NCBI GenBank assembly: GCA_036924085.1
Contig: JAVGWX010000007.1
Span: 71,811,948-71,875,947 of the forward strand
Direction of reading: 5' to 3'
From: Ariolimax columbianus
Taxonomy: Eukaryota; Mollusca; Gastropoda; Stylommatophora; Arionidae
Length of the DNA stretch: 64,000 nt
Position numbers and translations under genes: made by a program. The stretch's first letter is position 1. Every line of letters begins with the position of its first letter. Of this stretch, positions 2,045 to 59,312 are shown in pieces. Below the pieces are notes generated by a model, which saw nothing but the letters and a program-made list of their open reading frames with translations, was not told the origin of the DNA and searched no databases.

Positions 2045-3165
2045 CGATAGAAGGAAGCTGGAGCCGATGGCATCCTTTCCTGACTGGCATCAGTGGCTTA
2101 TCACGTTAGTAAAATGCAGTTAACAGCTGCATAGACCTTCTCTATGTTGTCTTTCAAAGACCTGTCACAGCAAGTCACTAAAACATGTGATTTTATTTTA
2201 ACTCAATGTGGACTATTCATATGTAAGTCCATGTCTTATATTCTACTTATTCTCACCATAACAGATTTTCTTTTTTAAAACGTATACTACTTCGTAGGAG
2301 TTGTCTGATTCCTGGCACATTAATACATGTATATATTTGACTAGTTACATGAAAATAATCCAGTACTGGAACGTCGTGGAGAGCTGAGCATAGAGTCGTG
2401 AAGTATATATATATAGTTCAAGTAACATTTTCTGTTTGTGAATTGAAGCTGATGGTTTCTTGTTTGTCTCATTCACCTCATCAAAAATAAAACACACTCA
2501 TAGAATAACATAATAAAATTTATGAATTCTGTTATTTCCTAAACACTGTGATTCTGTGGGTTCATAAGTGCTTTGTTTAATGATGCTTTTCCTTGTAATA
2601 TAACTTTGGGAATAGTAAACCATTGATATCTGCAGTTGGGAGATACTGCCACCTATCGTGGTGCTTCCATCTATGTCAACATCTCAATTGCTGCTCATGA
2701 TCTTCTATTCTCTGAAGCTTAAAGCGTTTCATGTCATGTTTAAACATTTGCTTACAAGTTATTCTGACTGTTCTGTGCTGTCATGTTTCAGATATTGATA
2801 GTCAACATACAGATATTTTTCAGGAGTGAATTTCTGTTGTCTCGCTAACTTGACTTTCCTTAGTTTACAGCTTCACTGCCACATTTGCACTTTTCGGACC
2901 AGCAATCAGTCGTCAGCATCACAATTTTGGGTACTGAGTTAGCCTTCCCTTTTCGATCTCTTCTCCTTAGCCAATCTGCCCTATTGCAGCCTGTTATCCA
3001 GGATCACTACGTGGGAGAGGGGGAGAATGGTCTTGGCAAGCCCTGAAGCAAGTAGTCAGCTTTGTGTCCTTGACCGCTACATCTCCTGCACTGCCATTTT
3101 ACTTTCAAGAAAAGAAGCTGAATCACAACACTACAGTGACAGAAAAACACACAGAGAAAGATTGA
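2045..3165. other. intergenic, distal paralogue homology
   Basis: About 2440-2560 (TTCTTGTTTGT, then AAAATAAAACAC) resembles 59955-60060 downstream of the second paralogue, so the duplicated unit extends about 1.4 kb beyond the stop codon. AATAAA near 2485 matches AATAAA near 59990 and could be a distal polyadenylation signal. I see nothing recognisable in 2560-3165. Confidence 0.4.
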
Positions 3166-3445
3166 GACAGATGGGTTGATTATTTGAAAGAAATCCACCA
3201 ACATCCAAAATTGAAACAGAACCTGCAAAGGAACCTATAAATATAAATATAAATAAACGAATACATGATAGATCACACAAGCGTTCAATCTATTAAAGAA
3301 GGTGAAAGCTGTAGGACCAGATAGAATCCACTTATAATCCATGAAAGAGGACATTTTAGCCATTACACTTTGCTACATCAGTTCTCCAAGAAAGTAGTCC
3401 ATCCCCAAAAGCTGGAAAGAGCGGTTCGGAAGTGTGCACTACTTC
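3166..3445 (+). pseudogene. LINE reverse transcriptase fragment
   Basis: The + strand translation around 3280-3420 reads a degenerate RT N-terminal motif (LLKKVKAVGPDRIHL, then PKSWKE). This matches the KAxGPDG...WK region of non-LTR retrotransposon RT domains. Frames are broken and only about 90 residues are visible. The clade is not determined (CR1 or RTE type). Confidence 0.5.
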
Positions 3446-8825: not shown

Positions 8826-8832
8826 AGACTAT

Positions 8833-9655
8833 TCTTCTTCTTCTTCTTCATCGTACGCAGTCAGACAGTAACCATTATTTTTTCGAAAAAAGCGGCGGTC
8901 ATCCTGAGGCTGTCGACACTGCCATAGAGCTTGTCTTGTGTTGCCACTGGTGATGGCCACATCTGCTCTCTCTGATCCTCGTAGTTCTGCATCAGATGCT
9001 CATTGGTCATTTTTCCGGTACCACACGGGCATTCGTCAGTGCCACCTATCTTCAATTTGTTGAAAAGGTGGTACCTCAGTCTATTGTAGCCAGTGCGAAG
9101 TCTGAAGACAACGACCTGCTCTCTTCTGTTCAACTGGTAATAGGCATCGTTTTAGGTGTAGCCGGTATGTTCAGTTTCCCATTTGGTCATGTATCTGGCT
9201 TTAATAAGCCATTTTGACTCTTCGTACGTCATACTAGTATCTGTTTGTGGTAGTCTTGCACATTCTTTTGCCAATCGGTCTGCCTCCTCGTTGCCTTGGA
9301 TGTTGCAGTGGGATGGGACCCACTGTACCACTACCCTTTTTGGTGCGGACTGCTGGTATAGTTGACAGAGTACTGCTCTTAAGTCATTAAGCTCAGTGTT
9401 TTTCTGGCTTTTTAGCACTGTGACTACGCCCAGAGCATCTGTAAGCAGAACTGTATGGCTTTAATTTCTTTTGTGTCACCATTTCTTCCACTGCCACCCT
9501 CAGTGCCTCTGCCTCCGCTCTGAAATTTCTTGTGTACTTACCAGTAGCAAATGACAGTTTTTTTTTACTGCCATTTGGTAGGTTCAGAAATGCTCCTGCC
9601 CTCCGTTCTGTGTTGTGTTTGTTACAGAAGCGTCGCTGTATGCATGGGTCCAGAA
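8833..9655 (-). mobile_element. 5'-truncated I-like LINE (RNase H and C-terminus)
   Basis: The minus strand encodes the RNase H end (VVVQWVPSHCNIQGNEEADR) and the Cys/His C-terminus (CPCGTGKMTNEHL) of the family whose intact copy is at 47980-53026. It ends with MVTV-stop, GTCTGACTGCGTACG and (GAA)n (seen as TTC repeats at 8833). Frames are broken and HLMQN has lost part of the NCPTY segment. It stops at the THAY-D RNase H start, head to head with the + copy at 9656. No target-site duplication was found. Confidence 0.85.
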
Positions 9656-12600
9656 GACAAGTCAGCTCTCTAACACTCTAATGAAAGAACGCTACGGAAA
9701 TCGTGTTTAACTCCGCAGAAACCGCAGATTTCAAATACCTGGTCATTGACAAACAAAAGCCCTCAATAAATTCGTCTGGCCAAATAGTGAACGGGTGCTG
9801 GAAATAGACCATCTGAAGACAGGTCAGTTTTACCCTACTAATGACAGGGCGTTGCTACGGAAAACCAGCTCATATCGAGAGGAGCCGCAGACACTTTGGT
9901 TCACGTACAAGGCTGATAAGCCAATGGCGCGAGGCTACCATGTGGGGGATTACGGCCGAACCCTTGTAAGCCGCAATCCCGCCCAAAATCTCAGCACCAC
10001 TGCAATGGGAGGCTCCTACATGCTCGGGAGCTGGGGCTTGCGCCCCAGCCCTATCCGGTAGAGCCGCAGTAAGAGGTCCTTGCCGTCCGCCGATCAAAGC
10101 GGGCGGACAACTGCTTGATACTCACCTTATACGGCGATGGGATGCGAAACCACCAACACAAGACTTAGTACCTGGTCGGGGTGTCGAAAACAGTAGAGCA
10201 GCCACCTCACTGTGAACTGTCGAGACTCAACCAATGACCACGAGAGCTGTCCGCACACCAGGCGAACAACATCTCTGTGACATTACCAGGCTTGTCCTCT
10301 GGCTAAATGCACTTCGGCTACGATATCTACCTCTGTACGTTATCAGCCATATAACTATCATGCTGGACGCAGAAGAGATGCAGACCAGCGGACATTGCAC
10401 ACCTGCCCCACTGTGTCAACACCCCAGGTGGCGGGGAATGCTAGGCGTACCGTCTCTGCATAGAAGCCAAGAAAATAAAGGGAGAAAGAGATACCCCACT
10501 CACATGCAAATGCTACGTTTCTGGCAGGACGTGACGATCCTGGGATACAGACACACTGGACTGCCTCTCTTCCGGGTAAACCAGTCCATCTCATATACCA
10601 TCTCACATATCATCATTGCACCCTATAGACACGAGTAGTGAAGACTCGATAGTCTGGTAAGACAACTTCCATAAGAGAGACAACTCTGATCATAAACAAC
10701 TGCTGCCTTGCAGATAGGCTGGGGACAGCCAAAGGCTAAGGAGGGCATCCCTACAGAAACGCCTGTTGAAATCGGATGCACGGGGCCGCAAGCCTAACAA
10801 AACAGTGCAACGTAAATCACAGTATGATGGCAGTACAACCTATTAGAAAAACGTATGGCGCTCATCCTGAGGAGACCCGCCAGGCAGCGATAGCGCCGGG
10901 CCTCACGCCTCGAAGGGGCCCACCCTTGACTACTGGTGGTCACCCACCCATGTGTCGTGGAGTCAAGGCACATGGCTATGGGGCAACGTCTATTGGCCAA
11001 AACCTCAAGACCCTCAAAATACTACAGTGGAATGCGGAGGGAGTCATTAACAAAAAACTTTCCCTAACACATCACCTGCATGAAGGTAAGATTGACGTGG
11101 CATGTATCCAGGAAACGCACCTCAACAATAACCATAAATTCTCAATCAGAGGATACCAAACCTTCCGTCTAGATAGAGAAGGCCACAAAGGAGGGGTCCT
11201 GATACTGACCAGAAACAGCATACCGAGTAGCGCGGTACCTGTCAATCACACCGGACAAGCAGAAATTGTAGGAGTTGACATAATGGCTCAAGAGACGAAG
11301 CTCCGCATTTTCAATCTGTACGGACCACCAAACAGAGACCTATCGCTCTCGAGTATGGAGGTCAGAGACTCCAACTGCATAGTAGTTGGAGATTTCAACA
11401 GCCACTCGGAGAGATGGGGATACTCTGACACAGACAGCAGAGGTGACGAAGTGGAAGATTGGGAGATAGATGCAAATCTCTCCCTAATCAATAGGCCGGA
11501 GGATAGCCCTAGCTTCTATTCAAGAACATGGCATACCACCTCGACTCCAGACTTGGCCTTCTCCACACAGGACATACACTATAAAATAGACCGCCAGGTG
11601 CTAAACCAACTGGCAGGTAGCGACCACAGGCCGATCAGGCTAACCATTGACATGGAAGTAGGCCCACAGGAAACAAAACCGCTCCCACGTTGGAATTACA
11701 AACGAGCCGACTGGGACAGATTTGCAATCCTGACAGATGGGCTGTGTGAAACCATCAACACACGAAACACCAAAATGAAGCCCATGGTGGAGAGCCTAAG
11801 CAAGGCAATAATGCAAGCCGCCACTGAAACCATCCCAAGAGGAGCTAGGAAAAACTATAAGCCCTACTGGAATGATGAGTTGCAGAAAGTGGAAGATGCA
11901 GTAACAATTGCTAGGAACATGGCAGAGCGAGAAAAATCCATGGAGGCAAACATCGCCCTCAAAGCCGCCACGGCGAAGTACAAACAGACTCTCAAGCAAA
12001 CAGCAAGAGAAAGCTGGAAAAATAAAACGGAAAGTGTAAACCTGGACAAAGACGGGAACAAGCTATGGAAGCTAGTCAGAGCCATGAGCGACGAAACCCC
12101 GTCAAATAAACAAATTACTATCAAGCAGGGCGAGAACTTGATCACAGGTAAGAAAGCCGCAAACGCCTTTGTCGATCACTATGCCAGAGCAAACCACATC
12201 GAGGTCCCTGCAGATAAGCATACAGACATTAGCGAAGAGCAAAAGGGGCACGAAAACATGAATACGGCACCTGAAGAGCACATGATGGCCAAATTAACAA
12301 TGCGCGAAATGGAAGAGGCTATGAGAACACTAAAGAAAAGGAAATCTCCCGGAAAAGACGGGATAACAAACGAAATGCTGATGGGGCTGGGCCAAACAGC
12401 GAAGAGGAAACTGCTATCGGTCCTGAACCAAAGCTGGAAAAGGGGAATTGTACCACAGGCATGGAAAGACGCAATACTGGTACCAGTACCAAAAACAGGA
12501 AAGGACAAAACAGATCCAAATGGATACAGGCCCATAAGCCTACTGAGCTGTGTCGGCAAGCTGATGGAACGGATGATAAACACCAGACTGATGTGGCATC

Positions 12601-14559
12601 TGGAAGAAAAACGAATACTAATTCCACAGCAAGCCGGCTTTAGACAGCACAGATCCACTGAGGTCCAGGTCATCCTCATAGCCCAGGAGATAGAAAATGC
12701 CTACCAGGCACAGAAACACACAGTAGCTGTTTGGGTGGATCTGGAAAAGGCATTTGACAAAGTCTGGAAAGATGGACTTAGAGTCAAGCTAAGAAGAAGT
12801 GATGTTTGTGGGAAGATGTACAAGTGGATCAACCACTACCTCAAACAAAGAACGGCCAGAGTCCAAGTACAAGGGCAGATGAGCAAAAAGGTGACACTCT
12901 AGCAGGGAGTACCCCAAGGAGGAGTACTGTCACCCACACTCTTCCTGGTATATATAAACGATATTACAGAGAATATATCAAGAAGAGTCCATAGCTCAAT
13001 GTTTGCAGACGATCTGGCTATGTGGACCTCTGAAAAGAATCTCACCATAGCAAGAAATCGGATGCAGACGGCCCTAACATCGCTGGAAGAGTGGGCGAAC
13101 TCATGGCTGGTCAAAATAAACGAGGAGAAAACCACATGCACAATATTCTCGCTTTCATTTAAACCCCAAAGTACCAAATTAAGTCTAAATGGCAAATTCC
13201 TGCAGCCAAACGACAACCCAACCTATCTGGGAGTGACATTTGATCGGCGCATGACATGGAAAAGTCAGATTGAGAGAAACCGAATGAAAGCCAGAGAAAG
13301 AATGGCAATCATGAGGAAAATTGCTGGCACAAGCTGGGGAGCAGACGAAGGCATACTAAAGAAACTGTACACTGTAAGAGTGAGACCAGTTCTCGAGTAT
13401 GGCATTGCGGCATGGACAACAGCAGCGAACTCGAACTTCGATAAAGTTAACAAACTTCAAAACCAAGCCATGCGAATTATAACAGGTGGCATGAAGTCAA
13501 CGCCAATTGTAGAACTTGAAAAGATTACAAAACTGCAATCCATGACCGATAGAAGAGACTGCAGAGCCCAGCTGCAGTCAGAGAAACTCCGAAGACTGAC
13601 CGACCATCCAATGCACCAGAGACTAAACAATTTGGGAAATGGGAAACTAAAGCGGAGACACTTTGCAGAAATAGCCAAAGCAAAGATGCACAAAGATCCC
13701 ATAAATGCACTAACAACACCAAAACCCATCACTACTGTACGAAAACCTACCTGGAGGCAGGATATATTTCCAGAGGTGGTAGAAAATATACCAGGTATTG
13801 CAAACAAAAACTGCCAGACTGAAAAAAGAAAGGAGAGATACTACCCTAAGCTTCATAACGAAAAGCTACCCAAGCATGGACTGGACCCATGCATACACCG
13901 ACGGTTCTGTAACAAACACAACACAGAACGGAGGGGCAGGAGCATTCCTGAACCTACGAAATGGCAGAAAAATAACACTGTCATTCGCTACTGGTAAGTA
14001 CACAAGCAATTTCAGAGCGGAGGCAGAGGCACTGAGGGCGGCAGTGGAAGAAATGGTGACACACAGTGAAAATGAAAGCCATATAGTCCTGCTGACAGAT
14101 GCTCTCGCCGTAGTCACAGCGCTAAAAAGCCAGAAAAACACTGAGCTTAATGACTTAAGAGCAGCACTCTGCAAACTGTGCCAGCAGTCCGCACAAAAAA
14201 GGGTAGTGGTACAGTGGGTCCCATCACACTGCAACATCCAAGGCAACGTGGAGGCAGACAGACTGGCAAAAGAAGGTGCAAGACTACCACAAACAGATAC
14301 CAGTATGACGTACGAAGAGTCAAAACGGCTTATCAAAGCCAGATACATGACCAAATGGGAAACCGAACATACTGGTTACACCAAAAACGATGCCTTTTAC
14401 CAGTTGAACCGAAGAGAGCAGGTCGTTGTCTTCAGACTTCGCACTGGCCACAATAGACTGAGGTACCACCTATTCAACAAATTGAAGATAGGGTGTACCG
14501 ACGAATGCCCGTGCGGTACTGGTAAAATGACTGCGTACGCAGAAGAAGAAGAAGAAGAG
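9656..14559 (+). mobile_element. near full-length I-like LINE, copy 1 (broken)
   Basis: Same family as 47980-53026 and very similar to it through the 1.1 kb 5' region and the ORF. Both copies start at GACAAGTCAGC, which marks the probable element 5' end. The 5' region holds short ORFs and no recognisable gag-like ORF1. The copy ends in (GAA)n at 14559. Its left neighbour is a minus-strand fragment of the same family, and its right neighbour is CR1-like sequence. No target-site duplication is visible, so the junctions may have been rearranged. Confidence 0.85.
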
Positions 14560-33646: not shown

Positions 33647-36600
33647 TGAGTAGCGTAGTGGTAGAATTATTCATAACTAAGGTACCGGATTCGACTCTGG
33701 GCTGTAATCTGATAACTGGCTTTCTATTAAGGACTAACAGGCTGCGCCAGATGGACGAATGGTGATGGCATCCCCATCTCATATACACGCTGATGCCTAG
33801 TACAATGGAGTTTCTAACGCTTCCTCCACTACATCAATGAATCATATTGAGCTACATTTACCTTTATTTTAAAAAACACATTAACTATCACGAGCATAGC
33901 GCCAAAGACGTTAAAACTAAATCCCTTCTCTTTCATCCTCCACAGCTCATCTTACATCAAGAGGAGCTCTCCATGGCATATTTCTCGGTCTGTTGAACTA
34001 TCATAACGTAGTCAAGAAGATTCACGAAGAAATCGATCGCGTCATCGGTACCCGAAAACCTAAACTAGAAGATAAATTGTCCATGCCTTACACTGATGCA
34101 ACGTTTTGGGAAACTCTGCGCATCTTATCTCAATCTCCATTAGGTGGCATAAGAACAGCATCCGAGGATATTCATATTGATGGCATGACTATCCCAAAGA
34201 GCACACTGGTAAGTGTCAGATGGTTGACTGATTAAAAAGGGGGAATCGTACCAGATCCGACCTTCTCCTTCTTCTTCGTCGTACGCTGTCAGACGTCAAC
34301 CTGTATTTTTTCGAAAAAAGCAGCGGTCATCCTGAGGTTGTCGACACTGCCATAGAGCTTGTCTAGTGTTGCCACTGGGGATGGCCACATGTGCTTTCTC
34401 TGATCCTCGTAAGTCGGGCAGTTTTGCAGCAAATGTTCAGCGGCCATTTTCCCGGTACCACACGTGCATTCGTCAGTGCCCCATATCTTCAATTTATTGA
34501 ATAGATGGTACCTCAGCCTATTGTGGCCTGTGCGGAGTCTGAAGACCACGACCTGCTCTCTTCTGTTCAAATGGTAATAGGCATCGTTTTTTGTGTAGCC
34601 AGTATGTTCTGTTTCCCAATTGGTCATGTATCTGGCTCTAATAAGCCTTTTGGACTCTTCGTAGGTCACACTAGGATCTGGTTGTGGTAGTCTTGCATCT
34701 TCTTTTGCCAGTCTGTCTGTCTCCTCGTTGCCTTGGATGTTACAGTGGAATGGAACCCACTGTACCACTACTCTTTTTGGTGCGGACTGCTCGCATAGTT
34801 GACACAGTACTGCTCTTAAATTATTAAGTTCAGTTGTTTTCTGGCTTTTTAGTGCTGTGGCTACGGCCAGGGCATCTGTAAACAGGACTATCTGGCTTTC
34901 ATTTCTTTTGCCTGTCACGATTTCTTCTACTGCAGCCCTCAGTGCCTCTGCCTCCGCTCTGAAATTGCTTGAGTATTTTCCAGTTGCCACTGACAGTGTT
35001 ATTTTTTTACCATTTGGTGGGCTCAGCAATACCCCTGCCCCCCCGTTCTGTGTTGTGTTTGAAACAGAACCGTCTGTGTATGCATGGGTCCAGTCCATGC
35101 TTGGGTAGTTTTTCGTTATGTACCTCGGGGTTATGTCGCTTCTTTGTTTTTCAGTCCGGCTGTTCTTGTTTCCAGTACCTGGTATATTTTCTACCACCTC
35201 CGGAAGTATATGCTGCCTCCAGGTAGGTTTGCGTACAGTAGGGATGGGCTTTGGTGTTGTTAATGTAATCATAGGATCTTCGCTCATCAACAGCAGTGGT
35301 ATTATTATTTGCTCCCCTTTCTAGCACAGCTCAAACTAGGCCGACTAGGCAATATTTTTGTTGATTACTAACCTGCACCACTAAAACAATAATTCTGTGG
35401 TCGATTGACTGATCTACTTTGAAATCTGTAGTCGAGAAACGGATGTGGCTGTTGAAATCGTAAATGGCCTTATACGATGGTGTTGCTAGCCTCATGGACA
35501 CGCTTTTTCAGGCTCCATTTGCAGCATTTTTGGAAGGCTTCCTTATCCACTCGGACAGAAACAATCCATGGTTTGATTTTATCATTAACGTAACTAGAGC
35601 ATATTTACTTAATGATTCAACAAATTACTGCAGGTCGAGTTTAATCATTTAGGCTAAGTCAACTTGCTTACCTGCTGACTTAGGTTTCTATCAACTGGTG
35701 ACGTCATGTCTCACATTTTTTTTTTGCTAAGCGTGCTGCTTCGGTCATTGTAAGGGTTTATTGTATGTGGTGTATTATAACATGTCCTTATGCCAGGTGC
35801 ACTTCGTTGTGCCTTGATGCAGTTATTTTATTATGTGATTGCAGGGTAGTTGATCAGTTTGAATCCTCATGAAATTACAACTTGAGCACCCCCAACACCC
35901 CTCGTCCTTCTCCTTGGCTCCTCCGCTTCCGCGCCTAGAAAAGTTACATTTGAGAAACTGTCATCAGTAACACTTGATTTAGCTTTTTTGGTGCGTAAAC
36001 ATATACATGGTTATAGCTGCTCTATTTTCTATTATGGTATACCAAAGTTTTCACTTTTATTATCTTTACGTCCCACAACGTATTCTAAATATTTTATTAA
36101 TGGTAACTTTTTCACAGCTTCATTTCTCTTTTTCTCCTATTTGTGTCTTTCAGTGTCACGTTATGAAAAGGTTTCTTGACCGGGCCCTAGTATTTGCTTC
36201 GTACACGGGGAGCTTTACTGCTTCTGTTATTTCTGCTAACCAACTTTGACGTAGTCGGCCCCAAGCCTTGTATTTATTATATATGTATAGCATTGCTTTC
36301 TGAGGGATACTATCTGGTGTTTGACTTGTCACGTTGCCGAACCATTTGGTTTGCTGTCTTTGTGAATGTCCAATTCTGGAACTGATAGCACAATGTTGGT
36401 ATGTGTTGTATTGTGTTCTTTTTTGTATCGATTGTCACGTACTTGCTTACGTTGTAAGTCTTTGCGCCACAGGATAGTTTATCTTAGCATCTTTAAATAT
36501 TTTTGAATGTTTAGATTTTTTTTTTTTATTCTGACATGTCGTGACGCAGTATTTGTTTGGGTACTAGTTGTCTTATTTATTTAACCAAGCGGAGTCTGCT

Positions 36601-37341
36601 GATATGTTGGCACAGAGATCCACCGTCAGCCTGTCAACTATTGTAATTGCTAGATGTTCCAATTGCAAAGAATTGTTTAATTTGTTCTTCATAAGGATGT
36701 GTTCGTGAATGTCGCAAACATTACTTTGCTTATTTAAATATTCGCCTGGTAACTTAGAGCTGAAATTTAATGGCCTTTAACACGACAGGGGCCGTATTGT
36801 GTCCAATCTAGATTTGCATTTCACTAGATTGAAAAAAATGGGTCCTTATGTGGTTCCAGTAGGTGTTTTTATGACTTAATGTACAGTATCATACACACTC
36901 GGCTACAAGCTCTTCATATATGTATGTATACATGTAGTTATATTTATCTACTCGTTTTAATAATACAATTGCAACCTGTGAAATAAAAAATCAAAACAAA
37001 GGCATCAATGTCACTAGAAGTGAAATAATGAGAAATAACATCAGAACAATTTTCAGAGCAATCTCCTCCCAAGAATACATACATAGAAAATAAAGTAGTT
37101 TGACCTTCTCACGAGAATGAAACCAGAATCGACTGCCATTAAAAACACACAACAGTAGAATATTAGGGTTGAGAGTATAGGGGAGACCACGAGGCAAATG
37201 GATAGCTAACATTTAAGACATCCTATACCAGCATGTACTCAAAACAGCATCAGAAGCACATCTGGTCCAAGAACGAGACCATCTGCTCTCCACTACGCTA
37301 TATGGCACTAGTGAACGGATAAAGGAAAGTAAGTAATACAG

Positions 37342-45633: not shown

Positions 45634-45646
45634 GAAATAAAATATC

Positions 45647-46277
45647 ATCTGGGGTAGTTGTCTCGCTGCGGCGACTCAATTTCAACCAGTGTTCGTAAAG
45701 CGATCTCAGTCCCGCCAGGCGGAGCGATAGCGCGGGCTTGCGGAAAACGCTCGCCTGCCTTTCCCCGTAGTGCGAATTGGGTGCGGTTTGTGGTAGTGGC
45801 TCCTCCACCGAGGTGCGCTAGTCTGGTCCGTATCAGGAAACGTGGTCCGTCCGTGGTGATTTATCTAAGGCTTATAGCAGAGCTCGACAGTACGTCTCGC
45901 TGGTGGTCCGACTCTCGCAAAGAGCTTGTGACCGGCAAATGGAAAGCAGGAATCGTTGCCTCGAGGCCCTGCGTTCTCCCTACGGAGAAGAAGGGCAGGC
46001 CAAATTGTGTCTCTAGTCCCAGTGAAATTCGTCGCCGAGGTCGTTGGGATCCGTTCTGCACAGAGCGCTGCCATCCCTCCTCGAGCGAGCCCGGTCGGTC
46101 GGTCGTCTGGTGCGTGTGGGAGGCCCCTGTCAGGCGGTCCTAGGTCGACGGAGTGAGGGACGGGTGGAACAAACCGTCCGTCCCGTCAGTCGGTCCCTGC
46201 GGCCGTCGTCCCAGCGAGGCTTTTTACACACCCTTCCTCCGCCGACCGGTGTGTGCTGTACGTACGTCTCCGACAGA
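45647..46277 (+). other. presumed rDNA 5' external transcribed spacer
   Basis: GC-rich, pyrimidine-tract-bearing, non-coding stretch that leads directly into the 18S 5' end, as the 5' ETS does. It starts abruptly at 45647, right after the target-site duplication. If reverse transcription ran to the end of an RNA template, 45647 would mark, or lie close to, the pol I start site. Identity is inferred from position and composition only. Confidence 0.6.
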
Positions 46278-47444
46278 TATCTGGTTGATCCTGCCAGTAG
46301 TCATATGCTTGTCTCAAAGATTAAGCCATGCATGTCTAAGTTCACACTGTCTCACGGTGAAACCGCGAATGGCTCATTAAATCAGTCGAGGTTCCTTAGA
46401 TGACACGATCCTACTTGGATAACTGTGGCAATTCTAGAGCTAATACATGCTTACCAAGCTCCGACCCTCGCGGAAAGAGCGCTTTTATTAGTTCAAAACC
46501 AATCGTCGTTTCCCCTCGCGGGGTTGCGGCGTCCCCACTGGTGACTCTGGATAACTTTGTGCTGATCGCATGGCCTCATGTGCCGGCGACGCATCTTTCA
46601 AATGTCTGCCCTATCAAATGTCGATGGTACGTGACATGCCTACCATGTTTGTAACGGGTAACGGGGAATCAGGGTTCGATTCCGGAGAGGGAGCATGAGA
46701 AACGGCTACCACATCCAAGGAAGGCAGCAGGCGCGCAACTTACCCACTCCCGGCACGGGGAGGTAGTGACGAAAAATAACAATACGGGACTCTTTCGAGG
46801 CCCCGTAATTGGAATGAGTACACTTTAAACCCTTTAACGAGGATCTATTGGAGGGCAAGTCTGGTGCCAGCAGCCGCGGTAATTCCAGCTCCAATAGCGT
46901 ATATTAAAGTTGTTGCAGTTAAAAAGCTCGTAGTTGGATCTCAGGCGCAGGCGGGCGGTCCGGCTCGCGCCGGTTCACTGCCCGTTGTCTCCTGCCCTAC
47001 CGTCTGCCGGCTCTCTCCCACGGGTGCTCTTCGCTGAGCGTCCTGGGTGGCCGGCGCGTTTACTTTGAAAAAATTAGAGTGTTCAAAGCAGGCCTCGGCT
47101 GCCTGAATAATGGTGCATGGAATAATGGAATAGGACCTCGGTTCTATTTTGTTGGTTTTCGGAACTGGAGGTAATGATTAACAGGGACAAACGGGGGCAT
47201 TCGTATTGCGGCGTTAGAGGTGAAATTCTTGGATCGCCGCAAGACGAGCTACTGCGAAAGCATTTGTCAAGAATGTTTTCATTAATCAAGAACGAAAGTC
47301 AGAGGCGCGAAGACGATCAGATACCGTCGTAGTTCTGACCATAAACGATGCCGACTAGCGATCCGCAGGAGTTGCTTCGATGACTCTGCGGGCAGCTTCC
47401 GGGAAACCAAAGTGTTTGGGTTCCGGGGGAAGTATGGTTGCAAA

Positions 47445-47493
<49 letters not shown>

Positions 47494-47514
47494 GCGGCTT
47501 AATTTGACTCAACA
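46278..47514 (+). rRNA. 18S rRNA, 5' two thirds (truncated copy)
   Basis: Starts with TATCTGGTTGATCCTGCCAG (normally TACCTGG) and runs colinearly through GCATGTCTAAG, GTGCCAGCAGCCGCGGTAA, GAGGTGAAATTCTTGGAT and GGAATTGACGGAAGGGCACC to TTAATTTGACTCAACA. The normal 18S continuation then ends. The variable regions resemble molluscan 18S. Odd changes at conserved sites (the first TAT, an extra T at CTTACCAAG) indicate a non-functional copy. No 3' 18S, 5.8S or 28S follows. Copied RNA and not a working rDNA unit is my reading. Confidence 0.9.
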
Positions 47515-47979
47515 TGGCCAACACTGAAATGATTGACATGCCGAGACCACTATTCTGGGGTCTAAGATGGAACTGGTGCTGGACTTAGACCCCCAGAAAT
47601 CTGGGGTTATGTCCCCTGTGGCTCGGTTTTGTCTGCATCCAGTGTTTGATAAAGGAATTGACGGAAGAGCACTATCAGGAGTGGAGCCTGAGACCTAAGT
47701 TAACTTACCACGCAAATACTGCAGAATGACTATCAAAAAGTACACCTTCGTGGGGTCTAATAGAGAACATGTGCTGGAATTAGACCCTCGAAAATTTTTG
47801 GGGCTACCCTTTAAGAAACTTGATTGTCTCGCTAAGGGAATTGACGGAAGGGCACCACCAGGTGTGGAACCTGCGGCTTAATTTGACTGAACACGCCAAT
47901 ACTGTAGAACAACTGACAAATCGGGAGCACTGCCGCTTGGGTCTAATAATGAACGTACGCTGGTATTAGACTCACGGAC
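47461..47979 (+). repeat. three 18S-derived tandem units with conserved hairpin
   Basis: The 18S segment ATTGACGGAAG...TTAATTTGACT recurs at 47461, 47657 and 47840 (spacings 196 and 183 bp). In each unit it is followed by about 45 bp of partly shared spacer and a hairpin with a 10 bp stem and a 15-17 nt loop containing GAAC and GCTGG. Stems: 47557-47566/47584-47593, 47752-47761/47779-47788, 47939-47948/47964-47973. The units diverge in sequence while pairing is kept, including the 3-4 bp outer extension. The first unit is continuous with the 18S copy; the third is cut by the LINE start at 47980. Confidence 0.8.
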
Positions 47980-50900
47980 GACAAGTCAGCTCTCAAACAC
48001 TCAAATAAAAGAACGCTACGGAAATCGTGTTTAACTCCGCAGAAACCGCAGATTTCAAATACCTGGTCATTGACAAACAAAAGCCCTCAATAAATTCGTC
48101 TGACCAAATAGTGAACGGGTGCTGGAAATAGATCTGAAGACAGGTCAGTTTTACCCTACTAATGACAGGGCGTTGCTACGGAAAACCAGCTCAAATCGAG
48201 AGGAGCCGCAGACACTTTGGTTCACGTACCAGGCTGATAAGCCAAGGGCGCGAGGCTACCATGTGGGGGATTACGGCCGAACCCTTGTAAGCCGCAATCC
48301 CGCCCAAAATCTCAGCACCACTGCAATGGGAGGCTCCTACATGCTCGGGACCTGGGGCTTGCGCCCCAGCCCTACCAGGTAGAGCCACAGTAAGAGGTAC
48401 TTGCCGCCCGCAAATCAAAGCGGGCGGACAACTGCTTGATACTCACCCTATACGGCGATGGGGTGCGAAAAACACCAACCAAAGACTTAGAACCTGGTCG
48501 GGGTGTCGAAAACAGTAGAGCAGCCACCACACTGTGAACTGTCAAGACTCAACCACTGACCATGAGAGTTGTCCGCACACCAGGCGATCAACATCTCTGT
48601 GACATTACCAGGCTTGTCCTCTGGCGAAATGCACTCCGGCTACGATATCTACCTCTGTACGTTATCAGCCATAACTATCATGCTGGACGCAGAAGAGATG
48701 CAGACCAGCGGACATTGCACACCTGCCCCACTGTGTCAACACCCCAGGTGGCGGGGAATGCTAGGCGTACCATCCCTGCATAGAAGCCAAGAAAACAAAG
48801 GGAAAAAGAGATACCCAACTCACATGCAAATGCTACGTTTCTGGCAGGACGTGACGATCCTGGGATACAGACACACTGGACTGCCTCTCTTCTGGGTAAA
48901 CCAGTCCATCTCATATATCATATCATCATTGCACGCTATAGACACGAGTAGTGAAGACTCGAAAGTCTGGTAAGACAACTTCCATAGGAGAGAAAACTCT
49001 GATCGTAAACAACTGCTGCCTTGCAGATAGGCTGGGGACAGCCAAAGGCTAAGGAGGGCATCCCTACAGAAACGCCTGTTGAAATCGGATGCACGGGGCC
49101 GCAAGCCTAACAAAACAGTGCAACGTAAATCACAGTATGATGGCAGCACAACCTATTCGAAAAACGTATGGCGCTCATCCTGAGGAGACCCGCCAGGCAG
49201 CGATAGCGCCGGGCCTCACGCCTCGAAGGGGCCCACCCTTGACTACTGGTGGTCACCCACCCATGTGTCGTGGAGTCAAGGCACATGGCTATGGGGTAAC
49301 GTCTATTGGCCAAAACTTCAAGACCCTCAGAATACTACAGTGGAATGCGGAGGGAGTCATTAACAAAAAACTTTCCCTAACACACCACCTGTATGAAGGT
49401 AAGATTGACGTGGCATGTATCCAGGAAACGCACCTCAACAATAACCATAAATTCTCAATCAGAGGATACCAGACCTTCCGTCTAGATAGAGAAGGTCACA
49501 AAGGAGGGGTCCTGATACTGACCAGAAACAGCATACCGAGTAGCGCGGTACCTGTCAATCACACCGGACAAGCAGAAATTGTAGGAGTTGACATAATGGC
49601 TCTAGAGACGAAACTCCGCATTTTCAATCTGTACGGACCACCAAACAGAGACCTATCACTCTCGAGTATGGAGGTCAGAGACTCCAACTGCATAGTAGTT
49701 GGAGATTTCAACAGCCACTCGGAGAGATGGGGATACTCTGACACAGACAGTAGAGGTGACGAAGTGGAAGATTGGGAGATAGATGCAAATCTCTCCCTAA
49801 TCAATAGGCCGGAGGATAGCCCTAGCTTCTATTCAAGAACATGGCATACCACCTCGACTCCAGATTTGGCCTTCTCCACACAGGACATACACTATAAAAT
49901 AGACCGCCAGGTGCTAAACCAACTGGCAGGTAGCGACCACAGGCCGATCAGGCTAACCATTGACATGGAAGTAGGCCCACAGGAAACAAAACCGCTCCCA
50001 CGTTGGAATTACAAACGAGCCGACTGGGACAGATTTGCAATCCTGACAGATGGGCTGTGTGAAACCATCAACACACGAAACACCAAAATGAAGCCCATGG
50101 TAGAGAGCCTAAGCAAGGCAATAATGCAAGCCGCCACTGAAACCATCCCAAGAGGAGCTAGGAAAAACTATAAGCCCTACTGGAATGATGAGTTACAGAA
50201 AGTGGAAGATGCAGTAACAAATGCTAGGAACATGGCAGAACGAGAAAAATCCGTGGCGGCAAACATCGCCCTCAAAGCCGCCGCGGCGAAGTACAAACAC
50301 ACTCTCAAGCAAACAGCAAGAGAAAGTTGGAAAAATAAAACGGAAAGTTTAAACCTGGACAAAGAAGGGAACAAGCTATGGAAGCTAGTCAGAGCCATGA
50401 ACGACGAAACCCCGTCAAATAAACAAATTACTATCAAGCAAGGCGAGAACTTGATCACAGGTAAGAAAGCCGCAAACGCCTTTGTCGATCACTATGCCAG
50501 AGCAAACCACATCGAGGTCCCTGCAGATAAGCATACAGACATTAGCGAAGAGCTAAAGGGGCACGAAAACATGAATACGGCTCCGGAAGAGCACATGATG
50601 GCCAAACTAACAATGCGCGAAATGGAAGAGGCTATGAGAACGCTAAAGAAAAGAAAATCTCCCGGAAAAGACGGGATAACAAACGAGATGCTGATGGGGC
50701 TGGGCCAAACAGCGAAGAAAAAACTACTATCAGTCCTGAACCAAAGCTGGAAAAGGGGTATTGTACCCCAGGCATGGAAAGATGCAATACTGGTACCAGT
50801 ACCAAAAACAGGAAAGGACAAAACAGATCCGAATGGATACAGGCCCATAAGCCTACTGAGCTGTGTCGGCAAGCTGATGGAACGGATGATAAACACCAGA

Positions 50901-53026
50901 CTGATGTGGCATCTGGAAGAAAAACGAATACTAATTCCACAGCAAGCCGGCTTTAGACAGCACAGATCCACTGAGGACCAGGTCATCCTCATAGCCCAGG
51001 AGATAGAAGATGCCTACCAGGCACAGAAACACACAGTAGCTGTTTGGGTGGATCTGGAAAAGGCATTTGACAAAGTCTGGAAGGATGGACTTAGAGTCAA
51101 GCTAAGAAGAAGTGATGTTTGTGGGAAGATGTACAAGTGGATCAACCACTACCTCAAACAAAGAACGGCCAGAGTCCAAGTACATGGGCAGACGAGCAAA
51201 AAGGTGACACTCGAGCAGGGAGTACCCCAAGGGGGAGTACTGTCACCCACACTCTTCCTGGTATATATAAACGATATTACAGAGAATATACCAAGAAGAG
51301 TCCATAGCTCAATGTTTGCAGACGATCTGGCTATGTGGACCTCTGAAAAGAATCTCACCATAGCAAGAAATCGGATGCAAACGGCCCTAACATCGCTGGA
51401 AGAGTGGGCGAACTCATGGCTGGTCAAAATAAACGAGGAGAAAACCACGTGCACAATATTTTCGCTCTCATTAAAACCCCAAAGTACCAAATTAAGCCTA
51501 AATGGCAAAATCCTGCAGCCAAACGACAACCCAACCTATCTGGGAGTCACATTTGATCGGCGCATGACATGGAAAAGTCAGATTGAGATAAACCGAATGA
51601 AAGCCAGAGAAAGAATGGCGATCATGAGGAAACTTGCTGGCACAAGCTGGGGAGCAGACGAAGGCATACTAAAGAAACTGTACACTGGAAGAGTGAGACC
51701 AGTTCTCGAGTATGGCATCGCGGCATGGACAACCGCAGCGAAGGCGAACTTCGATAAAGTTAACAAACTTCAAAACCAAGCCATGAGAATCATAACAGGT
51801 GGCATGAAGTCAACGCCAATTGTAGAACTTGAAAAGATTACAAAACTGCAATCCATGACCGACAGAAGAGACTGCAGAGCCCAGCTGCAGTCAGAGAAAC
51901 TCCGAAGACTGACGGACCATCCAATGTACCAGAGGCTAAACAATTTGGGAACTGGGAAACTAAAGCGGAGAAACTTTGCAGAAATAGCCAAAGCAAAGAT
52001 GCACGAAGATCCCATAAACGCACTAACAACACCAAAACCCATCACTACTGTACGAAAACCTACTTGGAGGCAGGATATATTTCCAGAGGTGGTAGAAAAT
52101 ATACCAGGTATTGCAAACAAAAACTGCCAGACCGAAAAAGAAAGGAGAGACACTACCCTAAGCTTCATAACGAAAAGCTACCCAAGCATGGACTGGACCC
52201 ATGCGTACACCGACGGTTCTGTAACAAACACTACACAGAACGGAGGGGCAGGAGCATTCCTGAACCTACCAAATGGCAGAAAAATAACACTGTCATTCGC
52301 TACTGGTAAGTACACAAGCAATTTCAGAGCGGAGGCAGAGGCACTGAGGGCGGCAGTGGAAGAAATGGCAACACACAGTGAAAATGAGAGCCACATAGTC
52401 TTGCTGACAGATGCTCTCGCCGTAGTCACAGCGCTAAAAAGCCAGAAAAACACTGAGCTTAATGACTTAAGAGCAGCACTCTGCAAACTGTGCCAGCTGT
52501 CCGCACCAAAAAGGGTAGTGGTACAGTGGGTTCCGTCACACTGCAACATCCAAGGCAACGAGGAGGCAGACAGACTGGCAAAAGAAGGTGCAAGGCTACC
52601 ACAAACAGATACCAGTATGACGTACGAAGAGTCAAAACGGCTTATCAAAGCCAGGTACATTACCAAATGGGAAACCGAACATACTGGTTACACCAAAAAC
52701 GATGCCTATTACCAGTTGAACCGAAGAGAGCAGGTCGTTGTCTTCAGACTTCGCACTGGCCACAATAGACTGAGGTACCACCTATTCAACAAATTGAAGA
52801 TAGGGTGTACCGACGAATGCCCGTGCGGTACTGGTAAAATGACCACTGAACATCTGCTGCAGAACTGCCCGACATACGAGGATCAGAGAGAGCAGATGTG
52901 GCCATTGCCAGTGGAACTGCAAGACAAGCTCTATGGTAGTGGCGAGAGTCTCAGGATGACCGCCGCTTTTTTCGAAAAAATAATGGTTACTGTCTGACTG
53001 TGTACGCAGAAGAAGAAGAAGAAGAA
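47980..53026 (+). mobile_element. full-length I-like LINE, copy 2 (intact)
   Basis: Starts at GACAAGTCAGC, the same point as copy 1 at 9656, and ends with the (GAA)n tail at 53026. The 1.1 kb 5' region contains short ORFs (48119-48382 is shared with 9795-10061, with a 3 nt indel that keeps frame) and a GC hairpin (GCCCGC...GCGGGC) near 48405. No gag-type ORF1 is recognisable. The RNase H plus APE architecture places it in the I-like group; the exact clade needs a tree. Confidence 0.9.
49089..52997 (+). CDS. APE endonuclease - reverse transcriptase - RNase H polyprotein
   Basis: Uninterrupted 1302 aa retrotransposition enzyme. APE endonuclease about 78-290: QWNAEG (N86), CIQETHL (E113), VVGDFNSHSERWGY, LAGSDHRPI. 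RT about 515-800: SPGKDGITNE, YRPISLLSCVGK, QAGFRQHRSTE, WVDLEKAFDKVW, GVPQGGVLSP, SMFADDLAMW (catalytic DD at 745-746). RNase H about 1037-1165 with D1042 (AYTDGS), E1082 (RAEAEAL), D1108 (LTDAL), D1161 (EEADRLAKEG). C-terminus CTDECPCGTGKMTTEHLLQN, C: a Cys/His cluster common in this group, perhaps nucleic-acid binding. All catalytic residues are present. The start is the first ATG of the frame; Met17 or Met18 are alternatives because conservation begins near residue 78. Confidence 0.93.
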   Translation: MHGAASLTKQCNVNHSMMAAQPIRKTYGAHPEETRQAAIAPGLTPRRGPPLTTGGHPPMCRGVKAHGYGVTSIGQNFKTLRILQWNAEGVINKKLSLTHHLYEGKIDVACIQETHLNNNHKFSIRGYQTFRLDREGHKGGVLILTRNSIPSSAVPVNHTGQAEIVGVDIMALETKLRIFNLYGPPNRDLSLSSMEVRDSNCIVVGDFNSHSERWGYSDTDSRGDEVEDWEIDANLSLINRPEDSPSFYSRTWHTTSTPDLAFSTQDIHYKIDRQVLNQLAGSDHRPIRLTIDMEVGPQETKPLPRWNYKRADWDRFAILTDGLCETINTRNTKMKPMVESLSKAIMQAATETIPRGARKNYKPYWNDELQKVEDAVTNARNMAEREKSVAANIALKAAAAKYKHTLKQTARESWKNKTESLNLDKEGNKLWKLVRAMNDETPSNKQITIKQGENLITGKKAANAFVDHYARANHIEVPADKHTDISEELKGHENMNTAPEEHMMAKLTMREMEEAMRTLKKRKSPGKDGITNEMLMGLGQTAKKKLLSVLNQSWKRGIVPQAWKDAILVPVPKTGKDKTDPNGYRPISLLSCVGKLMERMINTRLMWHLEEKRILIPQQAGFRQHRSTEDQVILIAQEIEDAYQAQKHTVAVWVDLEKAFDKVWKDGLRVKLRRSDVCGKMYKWINHYLKQRTARVQVHGQTSKKVTLEQGVPQGGVLSPTLFLVYINDITENIPRRVHSSMFADDLAMWTSEKNLTIARNRMQTALTSLEEWANSWLVKINEEKTTCTIFSLSLKPQSTKLSLNGKILQPNDNPTYLGVTFDRRMTWKSQIEINRMKARERMAIMRKLAGTSWGADEGILKKLYTGRVRPVLEYGIAAWTTAAKANFDKVNKLQNQAMRIITGGMKSTPIVELEKITKLQSMTDRRDCRAQLQSEKLRRLTDHPMYQRLNNLGTGKLKRRNFAEIAKAKMHEDPINALTTPKPITTVRKPTWRQDIFPEVVENIPGIANKNCQTEKERRDTTLSFITKSYPSMDWTHAYTDGSVTNTTQNGGAGAFLNLPNGRKITLSFATGKYTSNFRAEAEALRAAVEEMATHSENESHIVLLTDALAVVTALKSQKNTELNDLRAALCKLCQLSAPKRVVVQWVPSHCNIQGNEEADRLAKEGARLPQTDTSMTYEESKRLIKARYITKWETEHTGYTKNDAYYQLNRREQVVVFRLRTGHNRLRYHLFNKLKIGCTDECPCGTGKMTTEHLLQNCPTYEDQREQMWPLPVELQDKLYGSGESLRMTAAFFEKIMVTV

Positions 53027-53039
53027 GAAATAAAATATC

Positions 53040-58637: not shown

Positions 58638-59312
58638 ATGGTGCTGTTTGGAAGTTCTGTTGTGCTATATTTTCTTACAATAACCATTTTACCACAGGAA
58701 GGAGGACAGGATGTATCAAAGTTAATTCTTGATATCGCTAAAGTGCTTGCTGATATCACAAATGATACACATATTTTGCACACATTCAAAGTTTCTGCAG
58801 AAGCCAGAGTTCTTGTCATCGTCGAGGTTTCAAGCATCACTGGACTAGAGCGAACCGTGGGGAGACTGTTGCGACTTGGACCCATTAACATTGATAGCCA
58901 ACCTATTATACATTATGAAAGCTTTGCACGGAACCTCGGAGTGTCTGGTGAGTTGACCATGCCCTTCAACGGAGCCTTGCACAAGGAGAGACTTTACTGG
59001 CTTGATATTAGCTTAGAATATCACGGTAAAACTACGCAGCAACTTTTAACTCTCTGGAAAAAGACAGCTAAAAGTGCCATGATATCAAGAGATACAAAGC
59101 AATTAAATTTCTTGCTGTTTAAGAGTCTTGCAAAAAGAACAATTCATGAATTCTTAAATATCCCAGCCTCAATGGAGGAGTTTGAAGTTTTTGTGTTTGA
59201 GCATTCGCTATATTCAGATAATGGCTGGAACACATACATACACGTAAAGGCGCTGCAGTTTATGGACGATTACATCCGTTATCTCAATACGACCGAACGA
59301 CCTACCAACTAA
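58638..59312 (+). CDS. uncharacterised protein, two ferredoxin-like modules predicted (paralogue 2)
   Basis: Intronless ORF of 224 aa ending in TAA, paralogous over its full length to 466-1149. Most conserved: GGQDVSK, HTFKVSAEARVLVIVEV, TGLERTVGRLLRLGPINID, QPIIHYE, RLYWLDISLEY, LQFMDDYIRYL. The pattern beta-alpha-beta-beta-alpha-beta in residues 8-90 fits a ferredoxin-like or dimeric alpha-beta barrel domain, and the second half may repeat it. No cysteine pattern, catalytic motif or transmembrane segment stands out; the N-terminal hydrophobic stretch is too short to be a sure signal peptide. Function unknown. Confidence 0.72.
   Translation: MVLFGSSVVLYFLTITILPQEGGQDVSKLILDIAKVLADITNDTHILHTFKVSAEARVLVIVEVSSITGLERTVGRLLRLGPINIDSQPIIHYESFARNLGVSGELTMPFNGALHKERLYWLDISLEYHGKTTQQLLTLWKKTAKSAMISRDTKQLNFLLFKSLAKRTIHEFLNIPASMEEFEVFVFEHSLYSDNGWNTYIHVKALQFMDDYIRYLNTTERPTN

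Follow-up and report, generated by a model that had tools for sequence, protein, structure and literature searches.

How does a stretch of 18S ribosomal RNA (rRNA) sequence come to lie directly 5' of an intact long interspersed nuclear element (LINE) within one insertion? The question is raised by a 64,000-nucleotide stretch of the genome of Ariolimax columbianus (contig JAVGWX010000007.1, positions 71,811,948 to 71,875,947), here called the window, in which positions 45647-53026 form one insertion inside a 13-bp target-site duplication. A sequence-only reading of this locus had proposed that 18S and LINE arrived together in one event. The single retrotransposition with its duplication stands, but the insertion is no one-off chimera: the rRNA leader plus LINE is the usual full-length form (~7.4 kb) of a large dispersed LINE family. 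Many copies show this arrangement: the composite went in as a single unit flanked by target duplications, and both its 5' nucleotide and its rRNA/LINE join are common to these copies. The family carries a precursor rRNA (pre-rRNA) leader, from the pre-rRNA 5' end to 18S position ~1211, roughly the first two thirds of 18S, and we consider it somewhat probable that this leader is renewed by switching of the reverse transcriptase (RT) from LINE RNA to pre-rRNA. The parts of the window insertion are as follows.

45634-45646, no strand: left target-site duplication, GAAATAAAATATC, by sequence match to the right copy
45647-46280, forward strand: 5' external transcribed spacer; 45647 is the family 5' end and, in ribosomal DNA (rDNA), the base directly after GTATATT, the presumed +1 of RNA polymerase I (pol I)
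46281-47518, forward strand: 18S rRNA, Rfam model position 4 to ~1211; base 47515 deviates in the window copy only
49089-52997, forward strand: LINE open reading frame (ORF), 1302 amino acids, with endonuclease, RT, and RNase H, by domain matches
52998-53026, forward strand: LINE 3' end with (GAA)n tail, from the sequence
53027-53039, no strand: right target-site duplication, by sequence match to the left copy

Repeat matching, Rfam, and domain matches confirmed, respectively, the duplication, the 18S, and the open ORF that the sequence-only reading had reported. Elsewhere in the window, GAAATAAAATATC has a single further match, with one mismatch (36980-36992). The left copy abuts the start of the GC-rich spacer and the right copy adjoins (GAA)n; GAA is possibly part of the tail, and the duplication length is thus given as 10-13 bp. 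At least 13 shared bases occurred by chance in 4 of ~5000 random flank pairs and in 3 of 4858 AT-rich draws. The 18S model RF01960 matches 46281-47425 at 950 bits, which rules out chance similarity, and the 18S match was extended to 47520, the end of the stretch given. The 1302-residue product matches PF00078, PF14529, PF03372, and PF00075 (RNase H), and the ORF thus has the endonuclease and RT of an autonomous LINE. The relatives of this protein that bear organism names are from Littorina and Batillaria. By its domain order, the element may belong to an I-like, RNase H-bearing clade. Duplications of 12 and 15 bp directly abut the GAA tails of two other window copies of this LINE; in three further window copies tested for a duplication, none was seen.

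A dispersed LINE family with a fixed 5' end

Our search of the slug's own genome covered 2.29 Gb in 401 contigs (labeled C1, C2, and so on; loci read are labeled L001, L002, and so on). With window positions 47456-47990 (535 bases) as the join query, the best 40 of 2389 first-look candidates were scored, and all 40 span the full 535 bases at 99 to 100% identity. Thirty of these matches were read, the window copy included; several are the same locus taken twice (e.g., L004/L005/L011 and L008-L010). All 30 continue from the join into 18S: 19 reach the spacer at the edge of the piece read, one (L030) extends to 45647 but has lost an inner segment, and 10 end inside 18S, at 8 different points. With the spacer plus the start of 18S as query, the best 40 of 1953 first-look candidates were scored, and all start at most a few bases from 45647, except the window copy, whose match starts in its flank.

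Twenty longer copies were read for their 5' ends. Fourteen start exactly at 45647, two at 45650-45651, three inside 18S, and one at 45712, preceded by a stray 18S piece. The duplication test was made on 18 of these copies (without L046 and L051); a repeat of 8 bp or more adjoins the 5' boundary in 12 of them, and in 11 it is flush at both ends (L034 was left out of the latter count because its flank is a tandem repeat). No repeat of this length was found at the 5' boundary of L032, L036, or L047 to L050. The insertion sites are chromosomal and their flanks differ. Variable-length duplications (11/18) and 5' truncation (10/30) mark these copies as products of non-long-terminal-repeat (non-LTR) retrotransposition. 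An ORF frame of 1303-1304 codons is retained in 8 of the 18 copies, and the ratio of nonsynonymous to synonymous change (dN/dS) between two window copies is ~0.20 by simple counts. The family has therefore been active.

Fusion of rDNA to a LINE during assembly might be suspected, given that rDNA is hard to assemble and that L046 contains a run of N. For the family this explanation is refuted by the number of copies that lie in different flanks and by the flush duplications that 11 of 18 have of their own, and we put its chance at practically nil; the join at issue is common to many copies. The rRNA lies 5' of the LINE inside one duplication pair, as in a chimera made by an RT jumping between LINE and rRNA templates, and the earlier proposal that the RNA template carried rRNA 5' of the LINE is borne out.

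The presumed pol I start and variation in the leader

The family 5' end coincides with a particular point in the rDNA. On rDNA contig C222, GACCCCCGGAATGTATATT in the spacer is followed by ATCTGGGGTAG, and the sequence matches the window at all 92 bases read from 45647. The start reads likewise on C50 and C190, with the same base directly after GTATATT, so that the presumed rDNA transcription start falls between GTATATT and ATCTGGGG. The GTATATT/+1 pattern occurs in 121 places; among the 100 listed, 99 are on C50 and higher-numbered contigs (80-441 kb seen), mostly in ~12.2-kb steps that indicate rDNA arrays, and one is on a contig of chromosome size (C12:62836858). Because the TATA-like GTATATT stands directly upstream in three rDNA contigs, 45647 is probably the pol I transcription start. 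The suggestion that the element carries a pol I leader thus fits the point at which the leader begins.

We aligned the window copy with 18 others (L046 and L051 were omitted; L049 and L050 are truncated in 18S). Across these 19 sequences, the mean pairwise difference was 0.23% in 18S, compared with 1.00% in the spacer, 0.97% in the repeated units that follow the 18S, 1.12% in the 28S-like part, and 1.42% in the ORF. Variant sites common to at least two copies numbered 0 of 1234 in 18S, 12 of 634 in the spacer, and 100 of 3909 in the ORF; 29 shared 18S sites would be expected at the rate of the other regions and 23 at the spacer rate. All 18S differences (28 sites) are singletons, at 1.24 per kb compared with 1.41 in the spacer and 2.59 in the ORF, where 64 of the 192 singletons come from L047. 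On this sampling, the 18S was identical in every LINE lineage at insertion, whereas the spacer and the LINE body were not. On these alignments, a variable spacer beside an invariant 18S is the pattern of rDNA and not that of a neutral LINE leader, and the leader looks to have been renewed from rRNA and not simply inherited.

Other comparisons bear on the source of the leader. Spacer distances between copies correlate only loosely with ORF distances (Mantel r, 0.21, a value equaled or exceeded in 60 of 2000 permutations). 18S that runs past the family join was found in 130 places, and the 100 listed are all on C1-C20. Of five such longer-18S pieces compared with the window 18S, L058 and L061 agree at 1234 of 1234 bases and L053 at 1233 of 1234. 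Spacer alleles of the LINE copies recur in L053 and L061.

These data also bear on two rival accounts of the leader. In the first, rRNA was captured once and inherited vertically, the leader serving as an internal promoter with its 18S under constraint, for example, for ribosomal protein binding. A single join does dominate (27 of 30 loci), close LINE relatives have spacer alleles in common, and the dN/dS value above shows an active family. Such a history, however, requires constraint on all 1234 18S bases, as well as two spacer alleles held in common with rRNA-derived pieces, and we regard it as unlikely. In the second, dispersed LINE copies have their 18S refreshed from rDNA by gene conversion or unequal exchange of DNA. 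This would yield an invariant 18S with reassorted spacers, but where duplications are flush at both +1 and the tail (11 of 18) the exchange would have to be internal and leave both ends intact, and the copies read sit on large contigs and not on rDNA contigs. We consider this highly improbable.

Joins between rRNA and LINE

The join reads CAACACGGCCAACACTG in 27 of the 30 loci, with near variants in L017 and L024 and CAACATGG in the window copy alone. The sequence-only reading had ended the 18S at TTTGACTCAACA. The base that follows is C in 27 of 30 loci and T (47515) in the window alone, and in those 27 loci the intact 18S runs on through CAACACGG (window 47518), so the end has to be moved. 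Real 18S reads CAACACGGGAAAACTCACCCGGTCCGGACACTGTAAGGATTGACA at this point (L053 and L063); the family is without ~15 of these bases and then continues in diverged 18S-like sequence. The features of the inner 5' untranslated region (5'UTR), and a second long copy, were placed as follows.

47454-47649, forward strand: unit U1, with an intact 18S head, the ~15-nucleotide gap, a diverged 18S-like linker, and a 28S-like part at 47562-47633, by alignment
47650-47832, forward strand: unit U2, with a diverged 18S head (10 of 61 mismatches) and a 28S-like part at 47757-47828, by alignment
47833-48067, forward strand: unit U3, with an 18S head (4 of 61 mismatches) and a 28S-like part at 47943-48067, by alignment
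48104-48570, forward strand: diverged copy of the 28S rRNA 3' end in the LINE 5'UTR, by RF02543 and local alignment
9653-14558, forward strand: second long LINE copy, which begins at the equivalent of 47977 and has the same 28S-like 5'UTR

The gap of U1 is also present in U3, U2 agrees by alignment, and U1 is in register with both. As aligned, U1 is a unit like U2 and U3 with its head replaced in register by real 18S. The kept register and gap argue for exchange through homology and not for insertion of a LINE into an 18S gene.

The LINE region behind the 18S is, on the following comparisons, an older patchwork of pieces from both 18S and 28S. RF02543 model positions 3005-3399 match 48167-48570 at 69 bits, and the same 28S 3'-end match recurs in the second long window copy (9846-10248, 72 bits). 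Local alignment of 48104-48300 to 28S scored 149, compared with 38.5 for the best of 300 shuffles, and the tails of U1, U2, and U3 align to one identical 28S point, each scoring above all 300 shuffles. The 28S reference is a short stretch on one IMG/VR contig (L001) found with a 28S pattern; 18S patterns had no match in the outside sequence collections, a 28S pattern had none in an outside collection of genome contigs, and the LINE protein had none among viral contigs. The units are 68 to 77% identical to one another.

For the linkers, shuffles aligned equally well to the Rfam 18S consensus in 8 (U1), 226 (U2), and 337 (U3) of 500 trials, and to the 18S letters of L053 in 1, 100, and 14 of 500, respectively; for the linkers of L059 against the L053 letters, the counts were 0 (U1) and 28 (U2) of 500. 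An 18S origin is thus likely for the U1 linker, weakly indicated for U3, and not established for U2. Positions 48060-48106, compared with 18S and 28S, matched neither. The three units had been described as 18S-derived hairpins. Their heads are indeed 18S-like, but their tails are 28S-like, and a stable fold is seen only in the U1 tail (47515-47649; folding z, -4.5, compared with -1.9 for U2 and 0.0 for both U3 and the core); with z near 0 outside the U1 tail, there is no general case for conserved structure. The copy at 9653 begins at the equivalent of 47977-47980, which need not be the 5' end of the LINE. As a separate observation, the 18S of L060 (C1, ~35606672) extends almost to the 3' end of the rRNA before it joins the units, and the 28S part of this locus scores 150 bits compared with 51-72 in the others; L060 is perhaps an older form of the leader.

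Joins other than the dominant one also occur. Three different inner points of 18S are found fused to the +1 start (L052 at 46627, L058 after AGCTCTTTC, and L053 after TTAAATAGTTCGCC), and two fusions of longer 18S to the LINE lie at ~47478 (L059) and ~47656 (L061); L053 and L061 have an identical 18S end with different partners. These examples come from ten loci chosen through the spacer or 18S queries and are not a frequency sample. Joins of this kind would be expected from template jumping.

The sequence-only reading had offered two routes, a LINE resident in a transcribed 18S gene or an RT switch from LINE RNA to rRNA. A master LINE within 18S genes, cotranscribed by pol I while rDNA homogenization keeps its 18S flank identical, would account for the exactness of the +1 start, for the lack of variation in 18S, and for the spacer alleles held in common with rRNA. 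The promoter-spacer copy at C12:62836858 speaks for it too, as does one rDNA spacing on C86 whose excess of 7378 equals a whole element in length. However, a pattern search for joins of the LINE GAA tail to the remaining 18S gave 0 matches in an assembly that represents rDNA incompletely (the 3' end of 18S has matches in just 37 places). Using 97 of the 100 listed start sites and unit lengths that we set at 12.28 kb (12.15 for C67 and C190), 71 of 85 rDNA spacings equal whole units to within 450 bases, and the remaining 14 include none with the ~5.5-kb excess expected from an 18S-resident LINE (nearest, 4859 and 6404). Two rDNA units read across the join (L063 and L064) have intact 18S, and U1 shares its register and gap with U2 and U3. 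With chromosomal sites of differing flanks among the copies read and no match for a LINE-to-18S join, the family does not show the single site in rRNA genes of an rDNA-specific LINE. We regard a resident master as quite unlikely. Four spacings on C50 and C67 are longer by 4.1-4.9 kb, perhaps through R1/R2-type insertions.

The template switch fits better than the resident route. Under it, the RT would copy LINE RNA and, in the 18S sequence that both RNAs have, often cross over to a pre-rRNA, which it would then copy up to the 5' end. The switch would refresh the leader and make the pol I start the 5' end of full-length copies, and the same enzyme would also jump nonhomologously to 18S rRNA. 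More tentatively, and just short of what we would call probable, the LINE may complete its 5' end with host pre-rRNA as a second template, in which case its own 5' end need be neither transcribed nor conserved.

It is important to note that several points weigh against renewal by template switching. The close relatives L033/L034 and L038/L044 have spacer alleles in common, which indicates that the leader is not refreshed at every insertion. L059 is likewise joined to longer 18S, yet its 18S departs from that of the window copy at 18 of 1234 sites, and L060 differs at 56 of 531 aligned bases, part of which is probably misalignment. The three rDNA starts read carry one spacer allele at the first sites, that of the window, L032, and L037. 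Further, the invariant 18S could result from selection on the LINE RNA, a resident master could have been missed through the incomplete rDNA, and both the pol I start and the RT switch are inferred from DNA only.

Elsewhere in the window, an inverted LINE 3' part (~90% identical) lies directly against the start of a nearly complete LINE copy (97%) at 8832-14558 with no clear duplication, which could be a nested insertion or priming by two LINE RNAs. An older LINE 3'-end copy (85%) lies on the minus strand at 34262-35288 without a visible duplication. ORFs of 227 and 224 amino acids (466-1149 and 58638-59312) are similar by eye and are perhaps a gene pair.

Related systems and meaning for LINE biology

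Short interspersed nuclear elements (SINEs) with rRNA-derived heads resemble the family in drawing their head from a structural RNA, but these heads are of the RNA polymerase III type, whereas the family is an autonomous LINE with a presumed pol I leader. Such SINEs are named in the account of LINE-1 chimeras in PMC13174262. There, chimeric LINE-1 insertions with 28S rRNA, U6, 5S, tRNA, and other RNAs are attributed to proposed template switching or RNA ligation; as in the family, the RNA is fused 5' of the LINE in one duplication-flanked insertion, with 28S mostly in sense orientation. The 18 28S/L1 insertions described there have a median of 269 nucleotides (50-482), and its main text leaves 18S unmentioned; the family instead has ~1.87 kb of pre-rRNA from the 5' end in many copies.

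Template jumping is performed by R2 and L1 (PMC3414825 and PMC13174262). The R2 of Drosophila ambigua has a U12 small nuclear RNA 5' extension, and R2 makes template jumps to tRNA; as perhaps in the family, a jump possibly founded a subfamily with captured RNA at its 5' end (PMC3414825). R2, however, is site specific for rDNA, whereas the family occupies dispersed sites and its captured pre-rRNA is apparently renewed. As described in PMC5035012, R2, R8 (hydra 18S), and R9 link LINEs closely to rRNA genes, as here, and sequence derived from 28S occurs in the 3'UTR of one R2 lineage of vertebrates; those elements insert into rRNA genes, whereas the family copies read lie elsewhere and none was found in 18S. 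In Lepidoptera and coregonine fish, rDNA pieces and retrotransposons occur together, as in the family, but the cited parts of PMC10257491 and PMC3585787 describe no LINE family with an rRNA leader. The literature searched, largely outside subscription journals, contained no account of a LINE family with such a leader.

How LINEs retain 5' ends and promoters despite 5' truncation is an old question. In this family, the source of the 5' end, and of its renewal, appears to be a host RNA, and the leader would evolve with rDNA and not with the LINE. The family also scatters almost perfect 5' parts of 18S across the chromosomes, which has consequences for barcoding with 18S, for counts of rDNA copies, and for fluorescence in situ hybridization. 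With so many copies, template jumping becomes measurable from DNA alone.

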